Shown here: piece by piece, positions 163 to 35,699 of the stretch
Numbering within the stretch: the stretch's first letter is position 1
Layout: every line of letters begins with the position of its first letter
Virus record (IMG/VR): IMGVR_UViG_3300025674_000141
Location: 1 to 37,245 of that record
From: a virus
Reading direction: 5' to 3' (one strand)
Length of the DNA stretch: 37,245 nucleotides
Notes under the pieces: generated by a model
The model's input: the letters and a program-made list of their open reading frames with translations, nothing else
Told to the model about the DNA's origin: nothing
Databases searched by the model: none
Translations under genes and position numbers: made by a program

Positions 163-651
163 CTATGAAAATGCGAAACGGTCGCGGACGATGTCGAGTA
201 TCGACTCCCGATCGTTTTCAGACAACCCTAAAAACTCACGCGATGGAATATCGCCCCACGGGGTTCGCTTTCCGTACTGTCCCTTTTTAGCCCCGAAGTG
301 AAATGTGCCCGCGTATATCATCGGTGAGCCTATTTCGAGTTCACCATTTGAGACGTTATAAAAAATCTGTGTGCGGAGTTGCTTAGTCTCGCCAGTACCA
401 GCCTTTTTGTTTTTGATGCGTGCGACTTGTTTGGTCTTGAATCGACCCGCATAGTTCAGCAGCGTGACCGTTGAGTTCGCATCCCATTTTTCGCCGTCAG
501 GCGCGGTCTCAGTATTGAAACGATCTTTAGTCGAATCAATCAGCACCTCGCCGATTTCATTCAGCACCGGATCTATGTTGCCGACTGCATCGAGCAGCGC
601 CTGTAACGCAGAGCTGACTTCTTTATCGTCAAGCGTTACAGATACGCTCAT
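163..651 (-). CDS. Phage virion morphogenesis protein, Mu gpG-like / tail completion family
   Basis: A 162-residue protein that resembles the phage virion morphogenesis family (Mu gpG, P2 gpS type), small proteins acting in the last steps of head or tail completion. Family-like features are the N-terminal helical stretch, a central segment around residues 45-60 (DRFNTETAPDGEKWDANS), a glycine-rich FGAKKGQYG near residues 118-127, and the PSREFLGLS segment near 136-144 followed by a helical tail. Its ATG overlaps the stop of the portal fusion gene by 4 bases (ATGA), so it is probably translationally coupled and is the last gene of the leftward packaging operon. No clear terminator follows it. 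The family is fairly sure; the exact step in assembly is not. Confidence 0.82.
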   Translation of the reverse strand: MSVSVTLDDKEVSSALQALLDAVGNIDPVLNEIGEVLIDSTKDRFNTETAPDGEKWDANSTVTLLNYAGRFKTKQVARIKNKKAGTGETKQLRTQIFYNVSNGELEIGSPMIYAGTFHFGAKKGQYGKRTPWGDIPSREFLGLSENDRESILDIVRDRFAFS

Positions 652-2870
652 AAAAACCGCTCCCCAAGTTCGCGCACCAACGCTGCTTTAAACGCGGCCG
701 CAAGCGTTGCATTTAAAGCGATCACTTTTTTAGATGCGATGTCGCGGATCTCAGCGTCGACGCTTGCACCTGGTGCGTAATCCCAACCGTCATCTATATC
801 GCCCGGTTCATCAGCCGCGGGGTCTTCAAAACTTCCGCCTATGCGTTTTGCCGTTGCTTCAGATACAGCGATCACGTAACACGAACAGCCCCAGCCGTTT
901 GGTGTGTAGTGAGTGTCCCACCACGGGTCGTCGTGGCGTCGAACGATTTTGTCCCACTTTAGATGCTGAGGGCGAGGCTCCGCGCTGCCGCCATGGCGAT
1001 ACATTCGGAACGGTGCAACTTTTAACAACTCAGGGTCGTTGAGCTGTGCCAGCCTTCCGGCGTGGTACGTCGATTTCATGTTCGTTGTGTAGATCGTGCG
1101 CGTGCGCCAGTTCTTTTCGCCTTTGTAGTTCCAGCCGGTGCGCTCGATGATGTCGTCGAAGTCGCGGCGGAAATCTTCGATCGTGCCTCCGTTTTCGATC
1201 ACCCGCGTCACCGCGCCAGCAAGGTCATTTAATAGATCTGCTTTCATCGCTCCGGCGACCATAAACCCGCGATCATGCGCCGCGCCTTTGAAATCGTCCC
1301 AACGCTGGGTTGGTACCAGATTGCGCAGACGAATTTGAAGCGCTGCGAGCTGCTCGTTAAATACCGCCGCGGGTTCCGCAAACGCCAGCATTTTCATGCC
1401 GACTTCATTCGCTACGTCTTCCGCGCCGCGTGCTTGAGATACCGCGAATGCGGTCTCTAGCACGACGGTCATATCAAACTCATCGAGCGCGTTGTAACTG
1501 TCTAGCAGCGTCGTGTACAGAGCATCTAAACTGTCAGCGCCGTCGACGATCGCGCGCACTTTCGTCAGCCAAGCATCCATCGGCTCGGCTGCTGCGGTTT
1601 GCAGCTGCTCGGTTAATGTTTGCAGGCGTTGATCGATTGCGGCCGGTTCACCCTCGGCAAACTGCACCGCGTCAGGTTGTGCGGGATCCACTTTCGCGGT
1701 CGGCTCAGCTTTCGCTGGTACCGGCACAAGTTCCTCCGCAACGTCAAAATCCGTTTCTTTTAAATCGTACGAGCGCATGAAATAGTCTTTCGTAAATTTC
1801 ACGCCGGTACCGCTCAGAATTTCGTCACGCTTGGCTTGCTTGTCGTCGACGTCTTCTTGTTCCCATAACTTAAACTTTGGCGCGGGGCCGCTCATGCCGT
1901 TCGCGTACATGATCCACTCGATGAGCGTATTCATTGTGCTCTCGACCAAACCCGCATCACCGTCGCGCAAATCGTCGGCGACTTCTAAGCCGCTTTTCGC
2001 GCTGGCGTTCGTGCTGTTTGATTCGGTCGTTTGGTTTTGCCCAAGCAGCGCGATATTAATTTCGCTGCGGCAGTACATGAGCAACTTTTCATACGCCTCA
2101 GCGGCTCCGGCTTTCGCCGCGGCTTCGATAATATCGACGCTTGAATCGTCGGGTATCACCGCGATCGCATCTTGAACCATGCCTTCTAAATCGGCGGCTA
2201 ATTCGTTTTTTTCGTGAGTCTGTGTATTGCGCGGTACTTTACCCACCAACCACGGCGTGCCGTATTTTTCAGCAAACTGCACCCAGAATCGCAGCCCGCC
2301 TTTCATAAACACCGCGGGCCAGAACACCATGCTCATTTCAGCGATGCCCCACGGGTTTTGATACGTTGGCTCGTTGCGGGGTAATAGAATTTTACGATCT
2401 GGCAACTCGATGCCCGTCATCATTGAGTCGCGGGTGCGGAACCGCAGCTGGTTGTCTGTATTAAACAAAAACCACTCGGGTGGCTTAGCAATTAATTCGC
2501 CCGGCACCGTAAAACGCGGCCCTTTAGCCCATAAAATCTCGATGGGTTGATAGCCGTAAAGTGGTGCTTCGAGAATATCTTTGCGCGCTTTATCCATGTC
2601 GATATCGTCGAGAATTGCCTGAATATTGGCCTCAACCCGCGCTGACGCGTTGCCGCGCTCTAAACCCCACTCCAGCGACGTTACCGCCGCCTTACGTCGA
2701 CGAATCGCACCGCCCACGGCAGCGTGGCCGCGCAAGTCGCGGTAAATAGAAACGTCTTTACCCTTGGCTTTTAAAATCGCATCCGGGTTCGGTAGATAAT
2801 TACCCAGCGCGGTAAAATCGGGCGAGCGATCGCGCGTGACGATGTGGTCAGTGATGGTTTTCTTGCTCAT
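648..2870 (-). CDS. Portal protein (DUF935, Mu gp29-like) fused to Mu F-like head morphogenesis domain
   Basis: This 740-residue protein has two phage head modules. Residues 1 to about 380 look like a DUF935 portal, with conserved-looking stretches such as QNPWGIAEMS (171-180), FAEKYGTPWLVG (199-210) and LLGQNQTTES (275-284). Portals form the ring through which DNA enters the head. After a linker rich in Pro, Ala and Glu (about 380-500), residues about 500-690 match the Mu gpF / SPP1 gp7-like minor head family, including the hallmark TPNGWGCSC (656-664). In Mu these are separate genes (gp29 and gp30). The reading frame is continuous and both halves are intact, so this is a fusion rather than a broken gene. 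Its ATG overlaps the terminase stop by one base. Confidence 0.9.
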   Translation of the reverse strand: MSKKTITDHIVTRDRSPDFTALGNYLPNPDAILKAKGKDVSIYRDLRGHAAVGGAIRRRKAAVTSLEWGLERGNASARVEANIQAILDDIDMDKARKDILEAPLYGYQPIEILWAKGPRFTVPGELIAKPPEWFLFNTDNQLRFRTRDSMMTGIELPDRKILLPRNEPTYQNPWGIAEMSMVFWPAVFMKGGLRFWVQFAEKYGTPWLVGKVPRNTQTHEKNELAADLEGMVQDAIAVIPDDSSVDIIEAAAKAGAAEAYEKLLMYCRSEINIALLGQNQTTESNSTNASAKSGLEVADDLRDGDAGLVESTMNTLIEWIMYANGMSGPAPKFKLWEQEDVDDKQAKRDEILSGTGVKFTKDYFMRSYDLKETDFDVAEELVPVPAKAEPTAKVDPAQPDAVQFAEGEPAAIDQRLQTLTEQLQTAAAEPMDAWLTKVRAIVDGADSLDALYTTLLDSYNALDEFDMTVVLETAFAVSQARGAEDVANEVGMKMLAFAEPAAVFNEQLAALQIRLRNLVPTQRWDDFKGAAHDRGFMVAGAMKADLLNDLAGAVTRVIENGGTIEDFRRDFDDIIERTGWNYKGEKNWRTRTIYTTNMKSTYHAGRLAQLNDPELLKVAPFRMYRHGGSAEPRPQHLKWDKIVRRHDDPWWDTHYTPNGWGCSCYVIAVSEATAKRIGGSFEDPAADEPGDIDDGWDYAPGASVDAEIRDIASKKVIALNATLAAAFKAALVRELGERFL

Positions 2871-4483
2871 TAGTAGCCCTCTAGGATTCCGGCTGATTTG
2901 CGGCGGTGGCTACTCACCACTTCGACCGGCCCTTGTCTCATTTCAATACTGGCGAAAATCGCCAGCGCCAACGACGGCGCAAAGTCGCCGTGGCGATAGG
3001 TGTCTGGGTCTTTTAAATCTTGCCTACGTTGTTTGCTGACCATCGGTATGCCGTCGACTTCTTCGATCGCGCGCAGGTCGTTTGCAAGGTCTTGATCGTT
3101 CGGTACCACGATCGTGCCGTCTTCAAACTGCTGAATCATTTTTGGCATCCACGTGCCATACCATGAGCGCGTTAATTTGATCTCTGCGATGCGGCCGCTG
3201 CCGTATTTATCCGCGGTGTATTCTGCCAGCGTTTCACCGCTGCCGGTTGCGTCGAAGGCACCGCCGGACCAGCGCGGTAAATTGTCGATCACGTACCAGA
3301 TGATCTGCTCTTGTTGGCGCGTCGGTACTTTGTGCATCTCTAACACAAACGGCGTATAGCGTCGGCGGCTTGGTTCAATCGCCAATGGTGTAAAAATAGA
3401 ATAATCGCGGTGCCGCGCAAAATCGTGACCAAATACATGCAGGTGTTCGAGGGTGCATAATTTTAAAACTGGATCGATATTGCGTTTAATCCAATCGTCG
3501 CACCACGCCTCGCGCTCGGCGGGTGCTTTCTCAGTAAAGTCGTCAGCCAAGGATAACCGCACCACGGGGCGCTTAGGCTCGTTTTGCATCGCGTTATCAA
3601 TCCAGATGCCCGGCATGCTTGTGCCGGTACCGTCGCGAGGGATCGCGTCCAGCTCTTCGCGCATTTGTGCTTTACGTGGCCCGTAGCCATTGCGGATTGT
3701 TGCGTACCATTTCTTTTTACCTTCGATGGTCGCGACTTCGCCTTTCATCATGCACACGCGCTCGTACAGACCGTTTGCCACGGCGTCATCGAATGTGCAC
3801 ACGTAGACCGCGGCGCTGTCGCCATAGCGCCCGTCTTGAATATCTTTTATTAGCGCATTAAACGCATTTGCGCGGCCGTAATGCGTACTAATAATTGATA
3901 CACGACCACCCCAGATCAACAACGCCGTCGCCGCATCAATTACCGCCGCGACGTTACGATGGAAAGCGGCCTCGTCGATGATTACCTTGCCTTGCAGGCC
4001 ACGAATGTTTGCCGGGTTACTTGATAGCGCAACGATTTTAAAACCGGATGCGTAACGAATACGGTAGCTAGTGATATTTTTTGTCGAACCATCTTCCTGT
4101 TGATCTTCGAATAAAAATTCTTCGATCTCAGAAATACCACCGGCTTGAGCCATCGCGATGGTTTTAGAAAATTTCGCGCAATAACCAATAAACTCTAAGC
4201 CTTTTTCTTTTGTATCGCCGATGTAATAAACATCCATGCCCCCGGCTTCTTTAGACGCGCCCGCCAATAGCGGTGAATCTAAACCCTCGGCGAAGGTAAT
4301 GCCTGTGCGTCGACCCTTTCCGCAAACCTTAATTGGCGTATCTATGCGCAGCCAATCAATTTGATGCTGCATTAAAACGCCAGCATCCATCGGATTAAAA
4401 CCGTCGGGAATATTACGCGCGCGCGCCGGAAGCTCTTCCCATTCAACGCAGCGGATCGTATCGCCTAGGGGTTTCATCGCCAC
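2870..4483 (-). CDS. Terminase large subunit, Mu gp28-like
   Basis: A 537-residue DNA-packaging ATPase/nuclease. The N-terminal ATPase domain has a Walker A-like stretch GKGRRTGITF (55-64) and a Walker B motif VIIDEA (167-172), followed by the STHYGR coupling-type motif (199-204). The C-terminal RNase H-like nuclease domain shows FGHDFARHRDYS (351-362, Asp354) and DATGSG (411-416, Asp411), both expected to bind metal ions. The length fits the Mu gp28 family. It lies between the small terminase gene and the portal gene, as in Mu, although the whole operon is on the opposite strand to the capsid genes. In transposable phages this enzyme performs headful packaging from integrated copies. Confidence 0.93.
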   Translation of the reverse strand: MAMKPLGDTIRCVEWEELPARARNIPDGFNPMDAGVLMQHQIDWLRIDTPIKVCGKGRRTGITFAEGLDSPLLAGASKEAGGMDVYYIGDTKEKGLEFIGYCAKFSKTIAMAQAGGISEIEEFLFEDQQEDGSTKNITSYRIRYASGFKIVALSSNPANIRGLQGKVIIDEAAFHRNVAAVIDAATALLIWGGRVSIISTHYGRANAFNALIKDIQDGRYGDSAAVYVCTFDDAVANGLYERVCMMKGEVATIEGKKKWYATIRNGYGPRKAQMREELDAIPRDGTGTSMPGIWIDNAMQNEPKRPVVRLSLADDFTEKAPAEREAWCDDWIKRNIDPVLKLCTLEHLHVFGHDFARHRDYSIFTPLAIEPSRRRYTPFVLEMHKVPTRQQEQIIWYVIDNLPRWSGGAFDATGSGETLAEYTADKYGSGRIAEIKLTRSWYGTWMPKMIQQFEDGTIVVPNDQDLANDLRAIEEVDGIPMVSKQRRQDLKDPDTYRHGDFAPSLALAIFASIEMRQGPVEVVSSHRRKSAGILEGY

Positions 4484-4485
4484 GG

Positions 4486-5073
4486 TTAAATCCCCAGCAC
4501 TTTGTTACGCCAGAACGCGACCTGGTCTTCGTCCATGCCCTGAGCACGTGCTGCTGTTTCTGCGTTGCTTGCCGCCTCAGCCAGCGCTTCTTTGCGTGCG
4601 ATCTCTTTAATCTTGACCTCACGATCGGTAGTTTCAGACACGGCTTTTTCTAACTTCTCGTGCGAGTACGCTAGGTCTTTCAGCATCTTGATCGCGCCCG
4701 CGATGATCTCCGGGTCGTCTGCGCCCATCGTGATTTTTTGCAGTGCCAGGGAAACGTCGATCATGGAATTGCGAATAATCTCACTCGTCATGTTCGCAAC
4801 TTTAGACTGCGGCGCAGCACCGAACTCACCGATCCAAATTTCCGCCATTTGGCGTGACTCGCGGATAGCCTTACCGACTTGATCAATATTTAATTTGTAG
4901 CGATTAACGGCAGACTTAGTCACGGGATCTCCGCCCCGGTCTTCAATCAGTTCGTTTATTTTTTCAGTCACTTCTAACTGCGTGAGTTTGGGATCGTTCA
5001 GCCACGCGTGCAGCTGCTCCAACTCGTCCGCTGTTAACCGCTTTTTAATGCTACTTTTTTGGGCCATGATCAC
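4486..5073 (-). CDS. Terminase small subunit, DUF3486 (Mu gp27-like)
   Basis: A 195-residue, strongly helical protein resembling DUF3486, the Mu gp27 family of small terminase subunits that recognise phage DNA and load the large subunit. It opens with a basic KSSIKKRL patch, then a helix-turn-helix-like region (LTQLEVTEKINEL followed by VTKSAVNRYK), then a long helical region with many charged residues, and ends in QVAFWRNKVLGI. Initiation is either GTG at 5073, which overlaps the previous stop as GTGA, or the ATG at 5067 two codons later. I keep the GTG because neighbouring joints show the same 4-base overlap. It lies 2 bases before the large subunit gene. Confidence 0.85.
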   Translation of the reverse strand: MIMAQKSSIKKRLTADELEQLHAWLNDPKLTQLEVTEKINELIEDRGGDPVTKSAVNRYKLNIDQVGKAIRESRQMAEIWIGEFGAAPQSKVANMTSEIIRNSMIDVSLALQKITMGADDPEIIAGAIKMLKDLAYSHEKLEKAVSETTDREVKIKEIARKEALAEAASNAETAARAQGMDEDQVAFWRNKVLGI

Positions 5074-5369
5074 GCCCCCGGCAAAGGACGTGCAACGCCA
5101 GTGACTACCGTGCGACCTTTAGCAACATCAACACCGCGCGCGGTAATTTTTGCAACTTTGCCCACCGCTGACTCAGACACAGTGACCAGCGCCACGTCCG
5201 CCAGCCAGTCTAAATTAGCGCGCACTTTATCCGCGCTTACGCTGTGGCCCATTGCATCGAGGCCCATTTGCAGTACGGTTTCGTTGTGCGAATAGCCCGC
5301 GTCTTGCTCTAGCATTTGCAAAATCAATAGGCGCTGATTTTCTGCGACTCGTTCAGTAAAGTTCATCAC
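5070..5369 (-). CDS. Mu gp26-like protein with winged-helix look
   Basis: A 99-residue protein of the kind found between DUF2730 and DUF3486 genes in Mu-like phages (the VpaChn25_0724 / gp26 group). The sequence reads like a winged helix: helices in LLILQMLEQD and NETVLQMGLDAMG, then VSADKVRANLDWLADVALV as a recognition-type helix and wing, then ITARGVDVAKG. Resemblance to ArsR-type winged helices suggests nucleic-acid binding, possibly linked to packaging, but no function is established from the sequence. Both ends overlap neighbours by 4 bases, which indicates coupled translation. Confidence 0.72.
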   Translation of the reverse strand: MMNFTERVAENQRLLILQMLEQDAGYSHNETVLQMGLDAMGHSVSADKVRANLDWLADVALVTVSESAVGKVAKITARGVDVAKGRTVVTGVARPLPGA

Positions 5370-5749
5370 TTGCCACCTTTGTTTTGATCTAATAAATGTT
5401 GATAGATAAGCGCAGACTGATTCGCCATCGCGTTTGTCGCGCCTTCGACTTTTGACGTCGAGCGAGAAATACCGCTGAGCCGTACGTGTATTTTTTCAAT
5501 GTCTTCGTGGGTGGGGCTGTGTTTTAAATTTGCTTCAACAGTGGTGATACGTTTTTCGTGATCGCTGAGGCTACTTCTTACATCGAGATCTAGCTTTTCA
5601 ATCGCATCATGTACAGACGCGGTAAACTTGTCGAACGCTTCTGGGCTAACCGTCGTTTTACGAAATGACCACGCGATCCAAAATGCGACGGCATTAATTA
5701 GCAACACCAGTATTGGCCAATAGCCGTCGAGCTTATCCGTAAATTCCAT
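5366..5749 (-). CDS. DUF2730 family phage protein (Mu gp25-like)
   Basis: A 127-residue membrane-anchored coiled-coil protein and the first gene of the leftward packaging operon. One hydrophobic segment covers about residues 11-29 (YWPILVLLINAVAFWIAWS), followed by a cytoplasmic or periplasmic helical region with heptad-like spacing (FTASVHDAIEKLDLDVRSS onward). Length, topology and place upstream of gp26-, gp27- and gp28-like genes match DUF2730. Its role in Mu-like phages is unknown. Translation probably begins at the ATG at 5749, preceded by a purine-rich GAGATCAGA stretch; the promoter is expected in 5750-5897. Confidence 0.75.
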   Translation of the reverse strand: MEFTDKLDGYWPILVLLINAVAFWIAWSFRKTTVSPEAFDKFTASVHDAIEKLDLDVRSSLSDHEKRITTVEANLKHSPTHEDIEKIHVRLSGISRSTSKVEGATNAMANQSALIYQHLLDQNKGGK

Positions 5750-5897
5750 TTGTCTGATCTCATAAAAAAACGTAGTCTCAGTTTACTCGTTACCTACCTT
5801 TGATCTTTTAAACCGCTTTAAAAGATGCCCCCGCGCGATCCGTGCAAACTGACCCCACTAGCAATAGTTAATCAACTACTTAGGGGCGGATCATGTA
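5750..5897. promoter_or_regulatory. Divergent late control region between packaging and lysis operons
   Basis: This 148-bp gap separates two divergent operons and must hold both promoters. Leftward, TAAACT (5785 down to 5780 on the minus strand) is a 4-of-6 match to a -10 box and lies about 30 bp from the centre of the palindrome at 5803-5826. Rightward, AATAGT (5863-5868) and CAAACT (5845-5850) are candidates. The region shares GACCCCACT (5851-5859) and GTTAATCA (5867-5874) exactly with the other late control region (21447-21455 and 21399-21406). No good -35 box is seen, as expected for activator-dependent promoters. Start sites are inferred. Confidence 0.55.
5803..5826. promoter_or_regulatory. 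Perfect palindrome, candidate Mor-family activator site (site A)
   Basis: Ten-base arms ATCTTTTAAA and TTTAAAAGAT flank a CCGC spacer with no mismatch. A near copy with 8-base arms, one mismatch and a 4-base spacer occurs at 21428-21447, upstream of the protease and capsid operon. Mor/C-family activators are dimers that bind dyad sites just upstream of weak -10 boxes, and a Mor-family gene is present at 20939-21289. The symmetry suits a site that activates in both directions. Binding itself is inference. Confidence 0.6.
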
Positions 5898-6131
5898 ATG
5901 GATAACCAACACAAAAAAATTGCAGGCTATCGCGAGCTGAATCAGCAAGAAATTGACTTAATGAACGAAGTCAAAGAAAAAGCTGAAGAGCTACGTGTAC
6001 TTGTTGAAAAGCTCGAAAATCCGATTGCTGATATCAATCCAGACCAGCGCTGGGTCGCTATTGGAAAAACGGATTTACAAACGGGTTGTATGGCACTGGT
6101 GCGATCAATCGCAAAGCCGACCACGTTTTAA
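5898..6131 (+). CDS. acb2: Acb2/Tad1 hairpin-family protein, likely anti-CBASS cyclic-nucleotide sponge
   Basis: This 77-residue, all-helical protein carries the two hallmark segments of the Acb2 family: an N-terminal KIAGYREL followed by EIDLMNEVKEKAEEL (residues 7-32), and a C-terminal DQRWVAIGKTDLQTGCMALV helix (about 49-68) ending in RSIAKP. Acb2 proteins form hexamers that bind cyclic di- and trinucleotides, so the CBASS effector of the host is not activated. The size fits, and members occur in Pseudomonas B3/D3112-type phages. The start at 5898 follows a GGGGCGG ribosome site; an ATG at 5892 is followed directly by TAA. It is the first gene after palindrome A and precedes the lysis genes. 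The family call is good; ligand range is not predictable from sequence. Confidence 0.83.
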   Translation: MDNQHKKIAGYRELNQQEIDLMNEVKEKAEELRVLVEKLENPIADINPDQRWVAIGKTDLQTGCMALVRSIAKPTTF

Positions 6132-6161
6132 TTAGCTTTTTACGTATCGGAGGGCCACAGA

Positions 6162-6695
6162 ATGCAACGTCATAAAATCACGAATGATTTTTATCTCGAT
6201 GAATTCACCCGCAGCCAAACTGCGGCACGCTACGGCATTGATAACAGCCTGAGCGTGAGTGGCCCAACGTATGCTAACTTGCGACGTTTATGCCGCGACG
6301 TGCTGCAACCGATCCGCAATTATCTTGGCGTGACTGTTAGCGTGAGCAGCGGCTACCGCTGCTTAGCACTCAACCGAAAAATTGGCGGGGCAGATAGCTC
6401 ACAGCATGTACCTGCACTTGCTGCAGATATAAACGCCGCGGGTAAAACCCCGATGGAATTAGCGCGGGACATCGTCGATTTAAAAATGCGTCGTGAAATT
6501 AATTTTGATCAACTCATATTAGAGTTCGGGCAATGGGTACATATATCTACGCCCAGCCGCTCCGGTTTTGAGCGCAGCGAAATACTCACGGCAGTCAAAG
6601 TGCCGCGTAAATTTCGCAAACCAAAAACAGTGTACGTACGCGGACTGCACACCCAAGAAGACGCGCTGAAAATTGCGCAAGGTCGTGCGTTATGA
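6162..6695 (+). CDS. Endolysin, peptidase M15 family (D-Ala-D-Ala carboxypeptidase-like)
   Basis: A 177-residue zinc peptidase expected to cut peptidoglycan stem peptides at lysis. The M15 zinc site is visible: S80-x-H82 with Asp89 (SQHVPALAADI) and His127 in WVHIS, with Glu121 placed as the likely general base. VSSGYRCLALN (61-71) is also typical. The last 45 residues (about 133-177) are basic and may contact the cell wall. There is no signal peptide, so release would depend on the holin encoded next. An AGGAGG-like site (CGGAGGGCC) lies just before the ATG. The gene overlaps the next by 4 bases. Confidence 0.88.
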   Translation: MQRHKITNDFYLDEFTRSQTAARYGIDNSLSVSGPTYANLRRLCRDVLQPIRNYLGVTVSVSSGYRCLALNRKIGGADSSQHVPALAADINAAGKTPMELARDIVDLKMRREINFDQLILEFGQWVHISTPSRSGFERSEILTAVKVPRKFRKPKTVYVRGLHTQEDALKIAQGRAL

Positions 6696-6961
6696 GAGCG
6701 GTACCGACGCTGTGCGATAGCCGCGGCAAACAAAGCGTCACGCTGTTTTTTGTGAGCGTGTCGTGGCTTGTGCTCATTATTAAATTTGTCGCATCGGGCA
6801 TGGAAACCCCATTTGGGTTAGTGCCCGACATGAACGCCGCTGATTTTGGCCTTGCCGCGGTCGGTATTTTAGGCGCTTGGGTGGGCCGTGAATACACCGA
6901 AAAACAAACACAGAAACCGTATTTAAACGGTGACACTCGCGAGCCGGAGCACTATGAATAA
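6692..6961 (+). CDS. Putative holin, two membrane segments
   Basis: An 89-residue membrane protein directly after the endolysin gene and before the spanins, the usual holin position. Two hydrophobic segments are visible, about residues 16-36 (VTLFFVSVSWLVLIIKFVASG) and 48-64 (DFGLAAVGILGAWVGRE), joined by a short loop with PFGLVPDMN, and followed by a charged tail. It would open the inner membrane and let the endolysin out. No holin family can be named with confidence; the call rests on topology, size and context. It overlaps the endolysin gene (ATGA) and the following spanin gene. Confidence 0.68.
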   Translation: MRAVPTLCDSRGKQSVTLFFVSVSWLVLIIKFVASGMETPFGLVPDMNAADFGLAAVGILGAWVGREYTEKQTQKPYLNGDTREPEHYE

Positions 6962-7232
6962 CTGGGCATCACGATTAATCGGCTGGCTTGCCGCCCTCGG
7001 TGCTATGGCAGCCATGTTTTACAAAAGCAAAGCCGCCACAGAAAAAGCCAAGCGCGAAGCGGAAAAAGCTGAGTACGAAGAAGAACGCGCGGATCGTGCA
7101 GAGCATACCGCCGACACGTATCAACGCATCAACACCCAGCGCGCCGAGTTAGAACAACAGCACCAGCAGGAGCAATTAAATGATGAGACCAGCATTGATG
7201 GCCGCGATCATTTTAATAATCGCTTTAAATAG
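6954..7232 (+). CDS. Inner-membrane spanin subunit (Rz-like)
   Basis: A 92-residue protein with one N-terminal membrane segment (about residues 7-23, LIGWLAALGAMAAMFY) followed by a long, highly charged coiled coil rich in Lys, Glu and Ala. This is the i-spanin plan: anchored in the inner membrane with a periplasmic coil that joins an outer-membrane lipoprotein and disrupts the outer membrane at lysis. I choose the ATG at 6954, whose product begins MNNWASR, instead of the upstream 6930 start, because it overlaps the end of the holin gene in the compact manner of this operon. The o-spanin gene starts inside its 3' end in another frame. Confidence 0.78.
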   Translation: MNNWASRLIGWLAALGAMAAMFYKSKAATEKAKREAEKAEYEEERADRAEHTADTYQRINTQRAELEQQHQQEQLNDETSIDGRDHFNNRFK

Positions 7233-7431
7233 CGGCTGTGCCACGCGCATTGAATATCAAACGTTACCGCTGCCAATCGTGCCTCGCCCTGTATTACCCG
7301 CGATCGCGCCCGAAGAGCTAACGTGTTTGAGCGATGAGACATATACAACACTCGTCACGCGCCAGCGTCTGTTACGTCAGTGGGGCGAGGATATGGAATT
7401 AATTATTATGAATACGCAGGTCAAACAATGA
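7180..7431 (+). CDS. Outer-membrane spanin lipoprotein (Rz1-like)
   Basis: An 83-residue lipoprotein with a signal sequence MMRPALMAAIILIIALNSGC whose lipobox LNSGC places the lipidated Cys at residue 20. The mature part starts with a proline-rich stretch (LPLPIVPRPVLPAIAPEE), as in Rz1 proteins, and ends in a helical segment. It starts inside the i-spanin gene in a different frame, the overlapping arrangement typical of spanin pairs. AGGAGCAATTAA supplies the ribosome site just before the ATG at 7180. Together with Rz it should span the periplasm and fuse the membranes at lysis. Confidence 0.83.
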   Translation: MMRPALMAAIILIIALNSGCATRIEYQTLPLPIVPRPVLPAIAPEELTCLSDETYTTLVTRQRLLRQWGEDMELIIMNTQVKQ

Positions 7432-10438: not shown

Positions 10439-10509
10439 AGTAATCTCCTTATTTAGTTCCTTGAGTAATCATCGCGATTTTTTCAAACTCAGAACGTCCT
10501 GTTTCTCTT

Positions 10510-20938: not shown

Positions 20939-21289
20939 ATGTCGACACAAACCAAGTTCATGCGCGATGCGCCAGAGATGTTGATGGATCTCTACGATCA
21001 CACGTCAGCCGCTGCGCGCAAAGCGGGTTTGTCTGACGACGCGGCGGACAAGCTCGCCATTGAAGTAGTCGACCAGTTGGGCGAAACGTGGGCCGGCCAA
21101 CAATTATATTTCGGCAAGGGCTGCATCATGCGCCTGCGCAAACGCGATCTCGATATCTATAACGAGTTCGACGGAAAAAACCACGCCGAGCTAGCCGCAA
21201 AATACAAAGTCAGCACAGTTTGGATTTACTCGATTATTCGGACAGTTAAGAAACAAATACACGCAGACGCTCAGCAGCCGCTGTTGTGA
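20939..21289 (+). CDS. mor: Mor-family transcription activator
   Basis: A 116-residue activator of the Mor/C family. The N-terminal half is a helical dimerisation domain (APEMLMDLYDHTSAAARKAG, then AIEVVDQLGETWAGQQLYFG, with GKGCIMRLRKRD). The C-terminal helix-turn-helix is HAELAAKYKVSTVWIYSIIR. Mor proteins bind dyad DNA as dimers and recruit host RNA polymerase to middle/late promoters lacking a -35 box. Only one Mor/C-type gene is present in this window, so it may control the late genes directly, by way of the palindromes at 5803-5826 and 21428-21447. It follows a GGAGG site. Confidence 0.9.
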   Translation: MSTQTKFMRDAPEMLMDLYDHTSAAARKAGLSDDAADKLAIEVVDQLGETWAGQQLYFGKGCIMRLRKRDLDIYNEFDGKNHAELAAKYKVSTVWIYSIIRTVKKQIHADAQQPLL

Positions 21290-21364: not shown

Positions 21365-21427
21365 GATGTATTTAAAAAGTAGCTGGCGCAGTGGTATTGT
21401 TAATCAGCAACTAAATCCCCTCAAAAA

Positions 21428-21473
21428 CTCTTAAACTCCTTTAAAAGACCCCACTCGCGAATCCCGCCATAGT
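21428..21473 (+). promoter_or_regulatory. Candidate Mor-dependent late promoter (site B)
   Basis: CTCTTAAA-CTCC-TTTAAAAG (21428-21447) has 8-base arms with one mismatch and resembles site A at 5803-5826. A -10-like CATAGT (21468-21473, 4 of 6) starts about 30 bp after its centre, which would put the start near 21480 and the palindrome near -43, the position used by Mor at the Mu middle promoter. No -35 box is visible. A stem CTCACG/CGTGAG (21477-21482, 21493-21498) follows in the leader. Function inferred from position, sequence sharing and the adjacent mor gene. Confidence 0.58.
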
Positions 21474-21506: not shown

Positions 21507-22511
21507 ATGCCAGGCACAACACCCAGCATCCACATTTTCAAAGCCGGTACTCATACCAGCGTCGCGGGCGATCAAATATCGTTTAGCGATGCAGAAGTTG
21601 CCGCATCTATTAATGCCTACGATCCAGCGATCCACGAAGCCCCTCTCGTTATCGGTCACCCAACATTAGATGGCCCTGCGTACGGTTGGGTTAAATCATT
21701 AGCCGCCGATGCCGACGGCATGGTGGCGATCCCGGATCAAGTCAATGCCGATTTTGCAGAGATGCATAAAAGCGGCGCGTTTAAAAAAGTGTCCGCATCA
21801 TTTTACCCCCCGACCTCCGCGAATAACCCTGTGCCCGGCGTTTGGTATTTACGTCACGTCGGTTTTTTGGGCGCGATGCCTCCAGCCATTAAAGGGCTGC
21901 GTAACCCCGAGTTCGCCGAGGGCGATGATTACATCACCGTTGAATTTTCCGAAGGTTTGCCTGCTGTCGACGAGCCTGCAACACCTATTACCGAAGAACC
22001 CCCAGCCACTCAAACCGAGGACACCACCGTGACCGAAGCAGAAGCCGCAGCGTTAGCTGCAAAAAACAAACAGCTCGAAGCGGATTTGCTAGCCGAGAAA
22101 ACCGCCCGCGCTAAAGACGCCGCCGACCAGCGCGCAAAAGAAAACGTTGCCTTTGCTGAAAAATTGGCAACAGAAACCCGCATCGGTAAAGACGAAGCGC
22201 CGTTAATCGCCGCCGTATTAACCACGCTCGAAAATGCCGCCGCAGCAACGCCGGTGAGTTTTGGCGAAGGCGACGCTGCAAAACCCTTGCATAAAGCGTT
22301 TGCGGATTCGCTGCAAGCCCAGCCGACACGTGTGGAGTTTGCGGAGATCGTCACGAAAGAAAAAGGTGCGGAAGCGGACGCCGATGATTCGGTGCAATAC
22401 GCCGAAGGCACGTCGCCTGAGTCGATTGAGTTGGATAAAAAAATTCGCGCGCACATGAAAGCGCATAACGTTGACTACACCACCGCCGCGCACGCGGTCG
22501 GCAATAAATAA
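21507..22511 (+). CDS. Head maturation protease and scaffold (Mu gpI-like)
   Basis: A 334-residue protein. Residues 1-150 match the Mu-like protease domain: IHIFKAGTHTS, EAPLVIGHPTLDGPAYGWVK (about 46-65), FKKVSASFYPP (about 92-102), and WYLRHVGFLGAMPPAIKGL (about 112-130). Residues about 170-240 are a Glu/Ala/Lys-rich coiled coil, which together with the C-terminal part would act as the scaffold around which the capsid assembles, before self-digestion. A separate internal-start scaffold, as in Mu gpZ, is possible but not obvious. It is the first late head gene; its Shine-Dalgarno (GTGAG) is weak. Confidence 0.85.
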   Translation: MPGTTPSIHIFKAGTHTSVAGDQISFSDAEVAASINAYDPAIHEAPLVIGHPTLDGPAYGWVKSLAADADGMVAIPDQVNADFAEMHKSGAFKKVSASFYPPTSANNPVPGVWYLRHVGFLGAMPPAIKGLRNPEFAEGDDYITVEFSEGLPAVDEPATPITEEPPATQTEDTTVTEAEAAALAAKNKQLEADLLAEKTARAKDAADQRAKENVAFAEKLATETRIGKDEAPLIAAVLTTLENAAAATPVSFGEGDAAKPLHKAFADSLQAQPTRVEFAEIVTKEKGAEADADDSVQYAEGTSPESIELDKKIRAHMKAHNVDYTTAAHAVGNK

Positions 22512-22522
22512 GGGGATACTTT

Positions 22523-23449
22523 ATGGGTCGTTTATCAAATTTGCGTCAACAAGATCCGGTGCTAACTGAGTTAGCGTACGGCTACGATAACGCGGAAATG
22601 GCATGTGAAGCGCTATTCCCTGTTGTTAACGTTGACAAGGAAGGCGGGAAGATTCCGTTGTTCGGAAAAGAAAAGTTCCGCATTTATGAAACACTACGCG
22701 CGCTGCGTGCGAAGTCTAATCGCATCCAGCCATCCGACATCGGTGATTTAGACATCATCCTCGACGAGCACGATCTCGAATATCCGATTGACTATCGTGA
22801 AGACGAAGAAGCGAGCTTCCCACTGCGTGCACATGCGAACGATGTAGTAACCGAAGGCATTCAATTACGCCGCGAAAAATATTGTGCGGATCTCGCTCAG
22901 AACGCTGCTAATTATGCCGCGAGCAACAAAATTACGCTCTCGGGTACTAGCCAGTTTACAGACGGCACTAACTCCGATCCCGAGGGTGTCGTCTCCGATG
23001 CGCACGACGCAATTCGTAAGAAAATCGGCAAAAAAGCGAACACGATGGTAATCGGTGAATCGTCGTGGCGCGTGCTGAAACGTCATCCTCAGCTGCGCGG
23101 CCTGCTATCAACCAACACAAAGCGTTTAGTACGAATCGAAGACCTGAAGGATATCTTTGAAGTTCAAAATATTGTCATCGGTTTATCTATGTTTGAACCG
23201 GAGATCGGCGATCAGATGGCTGATATCTGGTCGGATAATATCGTCATGGCGTACGTCCCAACCGCTGATAAGTCTATGCGCACAATGTACAAGCCATCGT
23301 ATGGATATACGTTGCGCAAAAAGGGCAGTCTGATTGTGGATGCGCGTACTGAAGACGGTAAGGTCGAGATCATTCGCCAGACCGATATTTATCGCCCGTA
23401 CCTGCTGGGTGCCGAAGGCGGCTACTTAATCAGCAACACCAACGGTTAA
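22523..23449 (+). CDS. Major capsid protein
   Basis: A 308-residue protein right after the protease/scaffold gene, as expected of the major head subunit. It starts MGRLSNLRQQDPVLTELAYG, has LEYPIDYREDEEASFPLRAH around residues 75-95 (loop-like), TMVIGESSWRVLKRHPQLRG around 173-192, and ends in IYRPYLLGAEGGYLISNTNG. It probably has the HK97 fold, although that cannot be read from the sequence alone. The gene has a strong GGGGA ribosome site and shows regular codon use, consistent with high expression. Confidence 0.85.
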   Translation: MGRLSNLRQQDPVLTELAYGYDNAEMACEALFPVVNVDKEGGKIPLFGKEKFRIYETLRALRAKSNRIQPSDIGDLDIILDEHDLEYPIDYREDEEASFPLRAHANDVVTEGIQLRREKYCADLAQNAANYAASNKITLSGTSQFTDGTNSDPEGVVSDAHDAIRKKIGKKANTMVIGESSWRVLKRHPQLRGLLSTNTKRLVRIEDLKDIFEVQNIVIGLSMFEPEIGDQMADIWSDNIVMAYVPTADKSMRTMYKPSYGYTLRKKGSLIVDARTEDGKVEIIRQTDIYRPYLLGAEGGYLISNTNG

Positions 23450-23459
23450 GGAGTAACGC

Positions 23460-23888
23460 ATGGCAGCCCGTAAACCAACCCCAAAAGCAGCGGCTGAACA
23501 AGCCGCTGCAACTCCGCCACCGGCTGCGGTCGTCGTTGATAAAGACGCAACCGACGCTGATGTAAATGCCGCCCAGGAACAGGCCGAAGCCGACGCCAAA
23601 GCCGCTGAAGAATTAGCGGCCAAGGAAAAAGCCCAAGCCGATGCTAAGGCCGCTGAAGAATTAGCGGCCAAGGAACAAGCCGAAGCCGACGCCAAGGCCG
23701 CTGAAGAATTAGCGGCTAAGGAGCAAGCCAAGGCCGCTGCACTTGAGCCGCTCGAATACGTTGTCAATTCCCCCGTCAATCACGACGGCGAATCGTACAG
23801 CGTTGGTGACTACATCTATTTAACTGCTAAACAAGCCGCGCGTTTGGTCGCAAACGGCACCATTAGCATGACCGGAGAATCCGCATGA
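23460..23888 (+). CDS. Head-associated protein with Ala/Lys/Glu tandem repeats
   Basis: A 142-residue protein in two parts. Residues 1-40 are Ala/Pro-rich. Residues 44-91 are three near-identical 16-residue units (ADAKAAEELAAKEQAE), predicted to form a highly charged single helix. Residues about 97-142 form a small domain (YVVNSPVNHDGESYSVGDYI, then LTAKQAARLVANGTISM) like that of the short protein encoded at 25166-25339 (THAGKAYAAGDKINVREATA), so both may share a DUF7210-type module. It lies between capsid and cement genes. It may be a head decoration or connector linker. GGAG precedes the ATG, and its end overlaps the next ATG. Confidence 0.65.
   Translation: MAARKPTPKAAAEQAAATPPPAAVVVDKDATDADVNAAQEQAEADAKAAEELAAKEKAQADAKAAEELAAKEQAEADAKAAEELAAKEQAKAAALEPLEYVVNSPVNHDGESYSVGDYIYLTAKQAARLVANGTISMTGESA
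23589..23732 (+). repeat. Three tandem 48-bp repeats in coding sequence
   Basis: Three 48-bp units encode the 16-residue repeats of the preceding feature, differing by only a few bases. In-frame units of this kind can expand or contract by slippage, so copy number may vary between related phages. Confidence 0.85.
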
Positions 23889-24217
23889 AAACTCACATGC
23901 CTTTATTAGTAATGTCGATCACCGCCGCGTCGGCCATCGCTCAACGTCGTTTCGTCGGCCTCGACGGCGACCTGTGCGCCGCTGGGGCAAAAGCCCTCGG
24001 CGTCACCGAATTCGCCGTGGACGCTGGCGATCAAGCCTCGGTTAACGCCCTCGGCGTAATTTTGATTGAAGCCGGTGGTGCCATTGCTGCAGAAGCCCAA
24101 GTTGAAGTCGATGCGGCTGGTAAAGCGGTTACGCTGGATACCGGTATCAGCAACGGCTACGCGCTGGATGCCGCCACCGCGGATGGCGACGTCATCCGTA
24201 TTGTGCGCGGTATTTAA
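23885..24217 (+). CDS. DUF2190 capsid cement protein
   Basis: A 110-residue protein of the DUF2190 type, small beta-rich proteins that trimerise on the capsid surface and stabilise it. Signs are QRRFVGLDGDLCAAGAKALG (residues 20-39), VNALGVILIEAGGAIAAEAQ and LDTGISNGYALDAATADGDV. The N-terminal hydrophobic stretch is part of the fold and not a convincing signal peptide. It overlaps the preceding gene by 4 bases (ATGA). Confidence 0.8.
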   Translation: MKTHMPLLVMSITAASAIAQRRFVGLDGDLCAAGAKALGVTEFAVDAGDQASVNALGVILIEAGGAIAAEAQVEVDAAGKAVTLDTGISNGYALDAATADGDVIRIVRGI

Positions 24218-24220
24218 CCG

Positions 24221-24721
24221 ATGGCCGCGTATGCAACAGTCGCTGAGTTAGCCCGCGTAGCGATAGACGGCTGGGACGAACTCGCCCAGTTCTCGACACG
24301 TAACCCGCAGGTGACCGGCGACATGTTGGAGCAGGTGTATAACGACGAGCCGCTGGACGATTTGTCGTTAAACACCGACGCGGCTGACGGGCTGGCAGAG
24401 CTAACAGACACGCTCGAAAACGTGTCTCGTTATGCAGACACGTATTTAAACCAACGCTATCGGGAATTAGTGCCGCTAGCGCTGGAGCATTACCAAAACA
24501 CCGGCCTTGGTTATGCCGTGGCGGTAATCGCCTTGGGCCGAATGTACGGCATTCGTCAGAGCGAAGAGATGCGGAAAACGATCAAAGCGCAGGAAGACTA
24601 TCTGCGCGATTTAGCCTCTGGTAAAGCTTCGCTTGATTACACCCAGCCGAGCACGCCAGAGCCAAGCGGCCGCATGACGGTTGTGGCTAAACCATCGGCA
24701 TTTGATTGGGGTGGTTATTAA
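24221..24721 (+). CDS. DUF1320 head-tail connector protein (Mu gp36-like)
   Basis: A 166-residue, helical protein like DUF1320. It starts MAAYATVAELARVAI, has a helix-rich centre (VSRYADTYLNQRYRELVPLA) and GKASLDYTQPSTPEPSG, and finishes with AFDWGGY, the usual end of the family. These proteins form the ring between portal and tail. It is placed 3 bases after the cement gene, and its TAA overlaps the next ATG by one base. Confidence 0.82.
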   Translation: MAAYATVAELARVAIDGWDELAQFSTRNPQVTGDMLEQVYNDEPLDDLSLNTDAADGLAELTDTLENVSRYADTYLNQRYRELVPLALEHYQNTGLGYAVAVIALGRMYGIRQSEEMRKTIKAQEDYLRDLASGKASLDYTQPSTPEPSGRMTVVAKPSAFDWGGY

Positions 24722-25152
24722 TGTTTACCGACATTGAGCAAGCGTTAGTTGAGCGTTTAAAAGCAGCAATGCCGAATGTGCACGTACTGACAGCGACGGA
24801 CTTATCCGAAGTCGACGAGGCACGCCAACCAACGCCTGCGGTGCACGTTATTTATAACGGCTATCGCACGTTGCCAAACGCCCGCACCGACGGCAAAGCC
24901 ACACAAGTATCGCAAACGTGGCTGACCGTGATCGCCGTGCGCAACGTCCGCAAACGCGGTACCGGCGAAGCGGCACGAGAAGACGCAGTCGCGCTGTGCG
25001 AACAAGTTGCGGGCAGTTTGATGGGATTCCGGCCGCAATCGGCCGCTGGCCCGTTGACGCTAACGAACGCACCGCGCAGCGGCGCAAGCAACGGATTTAC
25101 ATACGTGCCGCTGGCGTTTGCCGTGGACACAGTTTTAAAAGCAGCCAACTAA
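24721..25152 (+). CDS. Tail terminator / gp37-like protein
   Basis: A 143-residue alpha/beta protein starting MFTDIEQALVERLKAAMPNV, with a central IYNGYRTLPNARTDGKATQV and a closing YVPLAFAVDTVLKAAN. It matches the gp37/DUF1834-type group found after DUF1320 in Mu-like phages, which is now viewed as tail terminator: a ring capping the tail tube at the head end. The ATG at 24721 overlaps the previous stop; an upstream ATG at 24706 lies inside the previous gene. Confidence 0.72.
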   Translation: MFTDIEQALVERLKAAMPNVHVLTATDLSEVDEARQPTPAVHVIYNGYRTLPNARTDGKATQVSQTWLTVIAVRNVRKRGTGEAAREDAVALCEQVAGSLMGFRPQSAAGPLTLTNAPRSGASNGFTYVPLAFAVDTVLKAAN

Positions 25153-25165
25153 CCACGAGGTATTT

Positions 25166-25339
25166 ATGGCATCTACAAAAACGATCGACGTCACACTGGC
25201 GAAGGCACACACACACGCGGGTAAAGCCTACGCCGCTGGCGACAAAATTAACGTCCGCGAAGCAACCGCGTCGTGGTTAAAAAAAGCCGGTGTTGTTGCG
25301 GATAACGCGCCCACCACTAAACCCGTGAAAGGAGCATAG
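25166..25339 (+). CDS. Small DUF7210-like protein, 57 residues
   Basis: MASTKTIDVTLAKAHTHAGK is followed by AYAAGDKINVREATASWLKK and a short Pro/Lys tail. The fold appears to be a small beta-plus-helix domain, as in the C-terminus of the repeat protein at 23460-23888. Such short proteins commonly precede the tail tube gene in this phage group. Its ATG has GAGG upstream, and its end supplies the AGGAG used by the tail tube gene 2 bases after the stop. Confidence 0.65.
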   Translation: MASTKTIDVTLAKAHTHAGKAYAAGDKINVREATASWLKKAGVVADNAPTTKPVKGA

Positions 25340-25341
25340 TC

Positions 25342-26118
25342 ATGGCTGAACGCGTAGCAGTTTATAAACCCTATCTGGGCAGCGGCAAAGTCTGGTTGCG
25401 TGATCAATCGCTGCCAAACGGCCCGTCGTATCATATCGGTAACGTGTCAGTACTCACACTGACTGTCGACGAAGAAGTGATCGAACAAAAAGATTACACA
25501 TCGGCTGGCGGCGGTACGCACGCTGAGGTGCGTCGCATCAACTCTGTGACCGCCGCTATCACGATGCACGACCTTAACGCCGATAACCTCGCGTTAGCGA
25601 CAAAAGGCAGCAACACTGTTGTTGCTGCGGGCACCGTCACTGACGAACCCGGCACCGCCCACAAAGGCGCTTTAATTCGCTTAGCGAAACCCAGCCCGAC
25701 CACCGTGGTTGTGACCAGCTCGGATGGCAATACGACCTACACCGAAGGCACAGATTACGACGTAGTTGGTGCCGGTATTGTGATCGCGACCACTGGGGCG
25801 ATTGCCACGGCAATTGATGCACTGGGTACACCATCAGACGGCCTACCCGTGCTAGTTGATTACGCCTATGGCGCGTACAACGAAGTGGAAGCACTGACCC
25901 AAGGCAACACGAACTGGGCGCTCACGTTCGACGGCGTGAACGAAGCAGATAGCGATAGCCCGCAGGTTGTTGATTTGCACAAAGTGAATTTGGGTGCGGC
26001 TAGCGAGTTGTCTTTGATTGGTGACGCGCTGGGCACGATTAGTGTCGAAGGTAAATGCCTGAAAGACAGCAGCCAAGGCGCGGGTAAGTCTGCGTACTAC
26101 CGAGTGCAGCAGGCATAA
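25342..26118 (+). CDS. Major tail tube protein
   Basis: A 258-residue beta-rich protein beginning MAERVAVYKPYLGSGKVWLR, with GNVSVLTLTVDEEVIEQKDY and VRRINSVTAAITMHDLNADN, typical of tail tube subunits of non-contractile phages. A middle insertion (about residues 110-180, THAGTVTDEPGTAHKGALIR-type sequence with SSDGNTTYTEGTDYDV) could be an Ig-like surface domain. The last part LSLIGDALGTISVEGKCLKD is again typical. No sheath gene precedes it, so the tail is of the siphovirus type. A strong terminator follows directly. Confidence 0.78.
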   Translation: MAERVAVYKPYLGSGKVWLRDQSLPNGPSYHIGNVSVLTLTVDEEVIEQKDYTSAGGGTHAEVRRINSVTAAITMHDLNADNLALATKGSNTVVAAGTVTDEPGTAHKGALIRLAKPSPTTVVVTSSDGNTTYTEGTDYDVVGAGIVIATTGAIATAIDALGTPSDGLPVLVDYAYGAYNEVEALTQGNTNWALTFDGVNEADSDSPQVVDLHKVNLGAASELSLIGDALGTISVEGKCLKDSSQGAGKSAYYRVQQA

Positions 26119-26153
26119 AAAACACGGATGACATCTCAAGGAAGAGACCCATT

Positions 26154-26183
26154 AAAAAAGGCGGCCATTTAGCCGCCTTTTTT
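26154..26183. terminator. Strong bidirectional rho-independent terminator
   Basis: A 12-base stem AAAAAAGGCGGC / GCCGCCTTTTTT with a CATTTA loop. The GC-rich core followed by six T works as an intrinsic terminator on the plus strand, and the A run makes it work on the minus strand as well. It lies between tail tube and tape measure genes, both of which read to the right, so it should reduce tape measure expression relative to the abundant tube protein. Confidence 0.9.
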
Positions 26184-26226
26184 GTAATAAAACTCTGAAC
26201 ATAAAACATAAATCTGAGACATAAAT

Positions 26227-29200
26227 ATGGCCAACCGCGATCTCGAACTAGCGCTAAAAATTAAAGCGACCTCCGAGGGCTTGGGCGAGATTCGGTCGAC
26301 GATTAAAGAGTTAGAAAATGCGGGCATCGAGACCGGCGCGTGGAAAGATGCAGTTAATGAGCTTGACGACACGCTCGCTGAGGTCGCACGCAATGACGCG
26401 CTAATAGAACAGTTTGTTAAACTAAAAACAGAGACCACAAAATCCGCCGAAGCGCTAAAGCTGGCCCAAGCCCAAGCGCAAAAACTCGCTGTCGAATTAA
26501 AGAACACCGAAAACCCCACTAAAGCCCAAACCGCGGCGTTCGAAAAGTCACGCGCCGCAGTCGTTAAATCATCCACGGCGTACAATCAAAACCGATTGGC
26601 CGTGCAAAATATGCGCGGTGATTTAAAAACCGCGGGCATCGAGACGCGTAACCTCGCTGCGCATCAAATTGCTGGCAACAAAGCCGCCGCGGATGCCAAA
26701 GCCAAGGCCGATCTGTTAACCCGTGGCCTGCAATCTCAAGTCACACAATTAAAAGCCGCAAGCACCGCGACGGTTAAACAAGCCGCATCACAAACTGAAG
26801 TGACTAAAACCGCAAAAACGGCATCCACACAGCTTGCAGATTTACAGCGCAACGCGATCGCATTATTCGGCGTGACCAAAGGCACGCAATTAATTGGCGA
26901 TTTAGGCCGCATGGCGGACGAGTACACAAACCTCAGTGCCAGGGTAAAACTAGCGGTCGGCGAAGGCGAAGCGTTCCGCGAAGGTATGGCGGATATCCGC
27001 GATACGGCAAACGACGTGGGCGGCGCGCTTAGCTCTATCGGCGAGCTGTATGTCACGCTTAATCGTGCAACTAAAGAGTTGAATTATTCGCAACAACAAG
27101 TCGCGAATTTAACCGACACCATTAGCAAATCATTTTTAGTATCAGGCTCGTCTGCGCAAGCCGCTGACGCAGCGATTACACAGCTCGCACAGGGTTTGCA
27201 GTCCGGCGTGTTGCGTGGCGACGAATTCAACAGCGTGATGGAGCAAAGCCCACGCTTAGCGCAAGCAATGACCGACGCCCTCGGGGTGACGCGCGGCGAG
27301 CTACGGGCGATGGCCGAAGACGGCAAACTCACCACAGAACTCGTTTTAAACGCGTTGCAATCTCAATCTGCCGCCATCGCTGAAGAAGCGGCTAAAATGC
27401 CCGACACGATCGGCCGTGCCGTGCAGCGGATGCAAAACGAATTTATGGTGGCGGTCGGCGAAATGGATCAAGCCGTGGGTGCGTCGGCGTTGGTTGCCGA
27501 GGCGTTATCCAGCGTTGCCAAAAACATGGAAACGGTCATTGATATGCTGGAGCTGGCGGGTGAAGTTGCTACCGCCGCACTGCTTAAAAAGTATGTGCCT
27601 GCGGTCATCGCATCGAGCAAAGCCACGCTAGTCGCCGCTAAAAACGGAACGCTATTCGCGGGCAGTATGGCGGCCGTCGAAGGATCGTCAAAAGGTGCCG
27701 CCGCAGGTTTGGCACTGCTCAAAAACGGGCTGCAGTTGCTCGCCGTATCATTCAGCGTCGATCAAGCATTTAAACTCGTTGGTGCGCTTGGGGAATTACG
27801 CCAAGCCAACCGGGTGCTTTCAGATTCTCAGCAACAGCTGATCGGTCAAAACGACGAACTCTCAAAAGCCTATCTCGAAATTAGCGAAAAAACAGGCGTT
27901 GTCGTTAATAACATGCGCGACCTTGACGTCGCCATCGCCAGCGGCACCATCGTTATTGACGCGCAGACCAATGCATATTTAAACGCGGCTCAAGCCGCCG
28001 AGTTAAAAGCCAAGCGCGATTTAGAGGCCAGTGACGCGGCCGTAAAAATGACGTACACGCAGCAAGAGTTATCGGCCCGAATGGGTGAGACAAACAAACT
28101 ACTGCAGGCAGCTGTCGATGATAATTCGAAACTCGCGTCGGTAATGTCCGGGGCACTGCTCGATGCCATGAAAAATGGCGAAACCGGCGTTGCAGCGTTC
28201 GCCATTGCATTGCGTGGTGCCGAGCAGCAAGGCAAGTTAACAGCGGAGCAAATCGAGACCGGATTGTCCTCCGCGTTGGCCGGTTTAAGCAATGAAGAAC
28301 GCCTGCGCTTCGGCGACGCAATAAAAGCAGCGATGGGCAAAGTGACCGAAGGCGCTGATGGCGCGGGCCTGAGTATTACTCAGCTGCAATCGCTGATTGA
28401 TAAAATGAATACGTCGGCGGACGAGCAAGCGCTTAGCCGCTTGGGCTTATCTATGACCGACTTGACCGGCGGCATATCCGCGGGCGTACAGCAGTCACTT
28501 GCGGATCTGCAAGTGTTGGACACTAAACTGGCTGACCTCGGCGTCACGGGTAGCGCAGCGGCCGCGGTTGTTGAGACCTCAATTACTACGGCATTGCGCA
28601 ACGCAAAAACCGCCGCCGATCGCACCGCGCTAACCGCAGTTTTAGAACGCTGGCGCGAGCAAGGCATTATTACAGCGGCCGCGTTTGATCGTATTACCGG
28701 CTCATTAAATCAAACCAAACAAGCCGCAGATTCACTTGATAAACGCATGGCCGACTTAGGTATTGTCAGTCAGTCGGCGCTTAACAGTGTTGCCGAATCA
28801 GCTCGCCAGCTTTATGACGATATTAAAAACAGCAACGCGCCTATTGAAGACCAAAAAGCCGCATTCGAACGATATGCTCAAGCCGCCGTCGCCGCTAATA
28901 AAAATGTGGCAGACGGGCAACGTCAGACCGTGATCGAGCAACTAAAAGTCATGGCCGTCATGAATGGTATGTCTGATTTTCTTGAGCAGTTGTTACAGCA
29001 ACAAGGATTGCTCGGCGATGCGGGAGAGCAATCTGGAGAGCAGATTAAAAAAGGGGCCGAGGGTGCTACCGAAGCAACCAGAACGCTGAGCAAAGCTGCT
29101 AAAGACTCGACCCGCGACGTCCAAGCCGTCGCCGCCAGTTTGGCCGAATGGTTCGGCGCTGTGCGCACCGAAATGCAAAGCCTAAGCGCCGAAGCCGGTG

Positions 29201-29994: not shown

Positions 29995-29999
29995 TAATC

Positions 30000-30386
30000 A
30001 TGTTACTCGACGCAGTTGAACTGCCCGAAAATCTCTACTGGTCAAACGAGTTTTCATTTAAACCTGCTGCTCAAAATAAACAGCGCGGCGTGACCGGCCG
30101 CATGATTATTCAGTCCGCGCCGCTGGTGTACGGCCAGCCGATAACGCTGACCGGGGCGTGGATTACCCGCGCCGAATTACTTATTTTGCAAGCGATGGAA
30201 AACGCGATTGATACCGTGCGCACACTCACGCTTAACAACGGCGACACGCACTCGGTGCTATTCGATCTCGACGCGGGTGGACTTGTCGCAACGTCGGAAT
30301 ATCCGCTAACCGCGCCGCTGTGCAACCCCGAAGATGAAACACTTTATAAGCTCACGATTAATTTAATTACAGTTTCAGGAGCCTAA
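30000..30386 (+). CDS. Minor tail protein, 128 residues
   Basis: A small beta-rich protein (MLLDAVELPENLYWSNEFSF, then QRGVTGRMIIQSAPLVYGQP and LTGAWITRAELLIL). The position right after the tape measure gene and the compact beta sequence fit the distal tail or tail-tip protein set of B3/D3112-type phages. It starts 5 bases after the tape measure stop, with AGGAGG just before. The precise role (distal tail ring or hub partner) is not readable. Confidence 0.65.
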   Translation: MLLDAVELPENLYWSNEFSFKPAAQNKQRGVTGRMIIQSAPLVYGQPITLTGAWITRAELLILQAMENAIDTVRTLTLNNGDTHSVLFDLDAGGLVATSEYPLTAPLCNPEDETLYKLTINLITVSGA

Positions 30387-30388
30387 AA

Positions 30389-35690: not shown

Positions 35691-35699
35691 GGGACGCGT

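Follow-up and report, generated by a model that had tools for sequence, protein, structure and literature searches.

The closest described systems are those of phage Mu and its relatives. It has been reported that at the Mu promoter Pm a Mor dimer occupies a 16-bp dyad centred at -43.5 and thereby replaces the -35 element (PMC4390567, PMC4287176). In Mu, the middle operon that Mor activates yields C, and neither of the two proteins activates the promoters of the other (PMC4287176). Transposable phages with a single "late regulator Mor/C" are already known, and in the B3-type members one Mor/C-family protein is the presumed late regulator (PMC8705779). The operator of the B3-type phages was not found in the literature searched, whereas an operator together with a two-way form is described here. 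The same literature contained no two-way C-activated promoter in Mu, no two-way Mor promoter, and no description of the present operator in Mu-like prophages.

The DNA analysed here, called the window, is the whole 37,245-nucleotide stretch of IMG/VR virus record IMGVR_UViG_3300025674_000141. The window belongs to a transposable (Mu-like) phage, as indicated by a DNA transposition protein (phrog_296), GemA and Mor; its DDE transposase gives an rve match below Pfam's cut-off. A CI-like repressor gene is present, with a repressor-Ner control region at 11.8 kb, and an IclR-like winged-helix gene lies in the early region at 12348-12659. To the left of the repressor, two minus-strand genes (9950-11328) match phage families of unknown function only weakly and are possible cargo genes. 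The Mor protein matches the Pfam Mor profile over its full length (positions 3-107 of 107; E=1.5e-31, 109 bits) and is similar to the solved structures of Mu Mor (1rr7) and Mu C (9l0x). The late genes form three operons (Table 1), of which the head-tail operon continues beyond the end of the record.

Table 1. Operators, predicted promoter hexamers and genes of the window.
Feature	Position	Strand	Remarks
Dyad A, proposed Mor-dimer operator common to two divergent late operons	5803..5826	.	Perfect 10-bp arms; core conserved in close relatives
Dyad B, proposed Mor operator of the head-tail operon	21426..21449	.	Kept in L003, L004 and in the mor-protease gap of distant phages
-10-like hexamer CAAACT, rightward (acb2/lysis) promoter	5845..5850	+	Bases 31-36 from dyad centre; same offset in relatives
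-10-like hexamer TAAACT, leftward (packaging) promoter	5780..5785	-	Bases 30-35 from dyad centre (31-36 in relatives)
-10-like hexamer CATAGT, head-tail promoter	21468..21473	+	Bases 31-36 from dyad centre
mor, sole Mor-family (PF08765) activator gene of the window; last early gene, adjoins gemA	20939..21289	+	Pfam Mor match
Leftward late operon: DUF2730-like, phrog_436, terminase small and large subunits, portal/minor head fusion, Neck1	163..5749	-	
Rightward late operon: acb2-like gene, M15 peptidase, Rz-like spanin	5898..7431	+	May extend to ~9859
Head-tail late operon: head maturation protease, major head protein, adaptor, tail protein, tape measure, further tail genes	21507..37244	+	

As in the Mu Mor/Pm system, a PF08765 activator is found together with a dyad of about 16 bp that lies upstream of a -10 hexamer, is centred at about -43 and is accompanied by no -35 element. 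Unlike in that system, the Mor-family sites here directly precede late operons, the dyad reads TTTAAA-N4-TTTAAA, and one site is common to two divergent promoters. The arrangement resembles the C-dependent late operons of Mu in that a dyad stands before every late operon, including the protease-head operon (the PI equivalent), but no separate C gene is present here. The two-step Mor-then-C scheme of Mu involves two Mor-family genes per phage, and one PF08765 gene was found both in the window and in its 36-39 kb relatives. The earlier note had presented a single activator in place of Mor-then-C as a simpler late switch; phages with a single Mor/C regulator had already been described, and the lack of a C step is thus no novelty.

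Both the palindrome between the divergent operons and the near copy after mor that the earlier note had pointed out are present, the copy spanning 21426-21449. Site A is composed of ATCTTTTAAA-CCGC-TTTAAAAGAT, with 10-bp arms and 0 mismatches (in full, ATCTTTTAAACCGCTTTAAAAGAT); dyad B, AACTCTTAAACTCCTTTAAAAGAC, has 3 mismatches and lies 137 bp past the end of mor (21289). Sites A and B are the sole matches in the window at up to 3 mismatches (0.00 expected in shuffles), and a search of the 37,245 bases with the 22-mer core at up to 5 mismatches also returned A and B only. Two more perfect 10-bp-arm hairpins occur in the window and are unrelated to the dyads in sequence: a GC-rich inverted repeat within an early gene (13024-13049, CAAATGCGCC...GGCGCATTTG) and a terminator-like hairpin that separates the major tail gene from the tape measure gene (26154-26183, AAAAAAGGCGGC...GCCGCCTTTTTT).

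The earlier note had also cited two strings shared exactly between the two regions as a sign of a common regulator. The strings do occur (GACCCCACT at 5851 and 21447; GTTAATCA at 5867 and 21399), but their distances from the dyads differ between sites A and B, and the nearest relatives have GTGAATCA and TTTAATCG in place of GTTAATCA. When region pairs of the same size are drawn at random from the window, 44% of the draws have an 8-mer in common and 16% a 9-mer, so these matches carry no weight. The element common to both sites in register is TGAYCYCAC, immediately 3' of the -10 hexamer.

The spacing between dyad and hexamer is the feature that most closely recalls Pm. No sigma-70 -35/-10 promoter was found at site A, where 5700-5960 was scanned, or at site B. 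The arm next to the hexamer is TTTAAAAGA, whose GA is absent from the far arm. If the hexamer is taken as -12 to -7, the dyad centre falls at -42.5, or at -41.5 for the leftward hexamer of the window. The predicted transcription starts (~5857 on the plus strand, ~5773 on the minus strand and ~21480 on the plus strand) would lie ~42-43 bp from the palindrome centres, in agreement with the ~40 bp expected in the earlier note. Relative to these predicted starts, three sequence features of a Mor/C-type promoter are found: a dyad of ~16 bp centred near -43, a -10 hexamer and no -35 element. Across relatives, most copies carry a -10-like hexamer at bases 31-36, such as CAAACT, CATAGT, TAAACT or GACAAT. 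Among 21 distinct one-sided dyads, from loci gathered by protein similarity alone and not selected for the hexamer, 16 have it at offset 31 or 32, against a background of 2.4% for the two offsets; P is ~2e-22 if the sites are independent, and the true value is less extreme because several of the dyads are homologous. A simple 5-6-5 scan for the Pm dyad of D108 gave none with a hexamer in register, and the geometric match to Pm therefore depends on published positions.

This geometry also bears on the proposal that the dyads are operators at which a CI-like repressor or Ner silences the late genes in the lysogen. Repressors often act at palindromes close to promoters, and a CI-like repressor is indeed encoded by the phage; however, the dyad has no copy at the repressor-Ner control region, just 9 of 19 motif-bearing records have a CI-like repressor, and a dyad centre ~42 bp upstream of the expected start is an activator position. 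Moreover, promoters without a -35 element need help, not blocking, and silencing by a repressor is thus very improbable.

The dyad is widely conserved. A terminase search yielded 52 loci, and every close relative (86-98% terminase identity) whose record includes the same divergent gap has the dyad there, with the core TTTTAAA/TCTTAAA-N4-TTTAAAAGA. Among more distant Mu-like phages, gathered by Mor similarity, there are 1-7 copies of TTTTAAA-N4-TTTAAAAGA, typically with one between mor and the head protease gene. For instance, the core TTTTAAA-N4-TTTAAAA is found in the mor-protease gap of Thalassolituus, of Bergeriella/Neisseria and of the viral contigs L177, L181 and L187; the closest relative in a named bacterium is that of Thalassolituus sp. 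UBA674, with 61% Mor identity. In Mor loci there are 12 occurrences of the exact core and 0 of three control dyads in which the same bases are rearranged, and near-complete motif-bearing records hold 1-7 copies per strand compared with 0-2 for a reversed control pattern. In Mor loci without the motif, a search for alternative dyads gave weak single matches only. The dyad expected upstream of equivalent operons in related phages was thus found.

The Neisseria/Bergeriella prophages (L124, L125, L183 and L188) have the same dyad and -10 spacing after mor, together with a second copy ~6 kb downstream, and differ from the window in having one-way sites only. In L125, a Neisseria phage, both arms carry a matched change (TTTTAAT-N4-ATTAAAA, with CACAAT at 31-36), as would be expected of a protein that reads both arms. 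In two Neisseria-type loci (L124 at ~12800 and L246 at ~11140), a rho-independent terminator abuts the second dyad, and one operon stops where the next Mor-type promoter starts.

The palindrome could in principle form a hairpin and act as a bidirectional terminator, or be an AT-rich hairpin that arose by chance. It is placed between divergent genes, its AT-rich stem is followed by no T-run, and no terminator was called there; a DNA motif conserved with fixed -10 spacing in distant phages also speaks against both forms of this idea, which is refuted by the conservation pattern and has practically no probability. The palindrome is conserved and is very probably a late-promoter operator of the Mor/C type.

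As to the protein that binds, Mor is the best candidate on the grounds of co-occurrence, promoter geometry and the function of its family. When 2.9 million viral contigs were scanned for dyads with an in-register hexamer, the pattern was found in 49 stretches, compared with 14 for a control in which the hexamer was shifted by 5 bp. Mor is encoded in 23 of 43 in-register records, one copy each, and in 0 of 23 control records (Fisher P=5e-6). Several of the short in-register records are fragments of such phages, and at record lengths of 34-44 kb 18 of 19 in-register ones encode one Mor protein. The IclR-like winged-helix protein could instead bind the dyads as late activator, with Mor doing something else: its gene is early, and a PF09339 family match is present in 17 of the 19 motif-bearing near-complete records, so co-occurrence alone cannot single out Mor. 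However, Mor is in 18 of these 19 records, including one (G018) without an IclR-type match at the same threshold, the IclR-like gene of PhiKM lies in the early region, distant from late genes, and Mor and C are known to activate Mu middle and late promoters with this dyad position and no -35 element (PMC4390567, PMC4287176, PMC4461284). A role of the IclR-like protein as the late activator is therefore very unlikely. Mor recognition helices vary among the dyad-bearing phages, and no clear helix-to-site code was seen when they were compared with the site variants.

Mor binding, activation and two-way use are inferred from sequence, and on this footing it is considered highly likely that Mor binds the palindrome as the operator of an activator-dependent late promoter of the Mor/C type, with site A serving both directions. 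The view in the earlier note that one regulator, likely Mor, controls three late transcripts is in line with the single Mor-family gene and the lack of a second (C) gene. In the proposed mechanism, Mor produced from the end of the early operon would bind TTTTAAA-N4-TTTAAAAGA as a dimer centred at about -42.5, stand in for the absent -35 element and recruit sigma-70 RNA polymerase to the -10 hexamer 31-36 bases from the dyad centre. Site B would drive the head-tail operon; at site A, with a -10 on each side, the same dimer site would serve packaging to the left and acb2/lysis to the right, the polymerases probably acting one at a time or alternating.

The two-way use of site A is suggested by its hexamers. 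On the leftward side, all 7 of 7 distinct relatives retain TA[AC]ACT and the GA after it, although the preceding 16 bases vary, a conservation with a chance of ~4e-12 if the relatives are independent; the hexamer begins at base 31 in relatives and at base 30 in the window's own lineage. The rightward hexamer is also kept, as CAAACT, CATAGT, CAGACT or CAATAT. Since the hexamer is conserved on both sides, one dyad probably drives the packaging genes leftward and the acb2/lysis genes rightward. It is also conceivable that site A works rightward only, the leftward hexamer being idle and the packaging genes being transcribed from elsewhere, as the left arm is weaker in relatives (ATTTTAAA or TATCTTAAA) and the right arm TTTAAAAGAT is invariant. 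Such one-way use is unlikely, given the 7/7 preservation of leftward TA[AC]ACTGA, the finding of no other promoter in the gap, and the start of the packaging operon ~24 bases past the expected leftward start.

The earlier note had attributed two-way activation to perfect symmetry and one-way activation to imperfect symmetry. This rule fails: perfect symmetry at site A is limited to the window and its near-twin L019, and six distinct relatives with an imperfect site A retain a -10 hexamer on both sides, so symmetry is not the cause of the two-way form. Whether a site is one-way or two-way is, as read from these hexamer patterns, set by the presence of a -10 on the far side of the dyad. In the other dyads of this phage group, only one side bears a hexamer. 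The sole further two-sided case, at 7867 in L044, carries CACAAT at bases 31-36 to its left and to its right, where the local genes run in one direction; it could give antisense RNA toward the repressor side.

The wider proposal is that one Mor dimer on a symmetric site activates both divergent operons and replaces both Mor-then-C steps, and that TTTTAAA-N4-TTTAAAAGA defines a late regulon that a broad clade of transposable phages has in common; this is judged moderately likely. If true, packaging and anti-CBASS/lysis genes would be switched on from a single DNA-bound protein, and the dyad signature would locate late promoters of many Mu-like phages and prophages (from marine bacteria, Neisseria and others) by sequence alone. 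Site A would also be a compact case for testing whether two outward-facing polymerases can share one symmetric activator dimer. For the window phage, the prediction is that acb2, the anti-CBASS gene, is expressed late along with lysis, not early. At 5882-5900, a minimal start-stop ATG-TAA overlaps the start of the acb2-like gene (ATGTAATG), with a Shine-Dalgarno-like AGGGG on its 5' side; the arrangement is conserved in 6 relatives and may couple or damp translation of the anti-CBASS gene.
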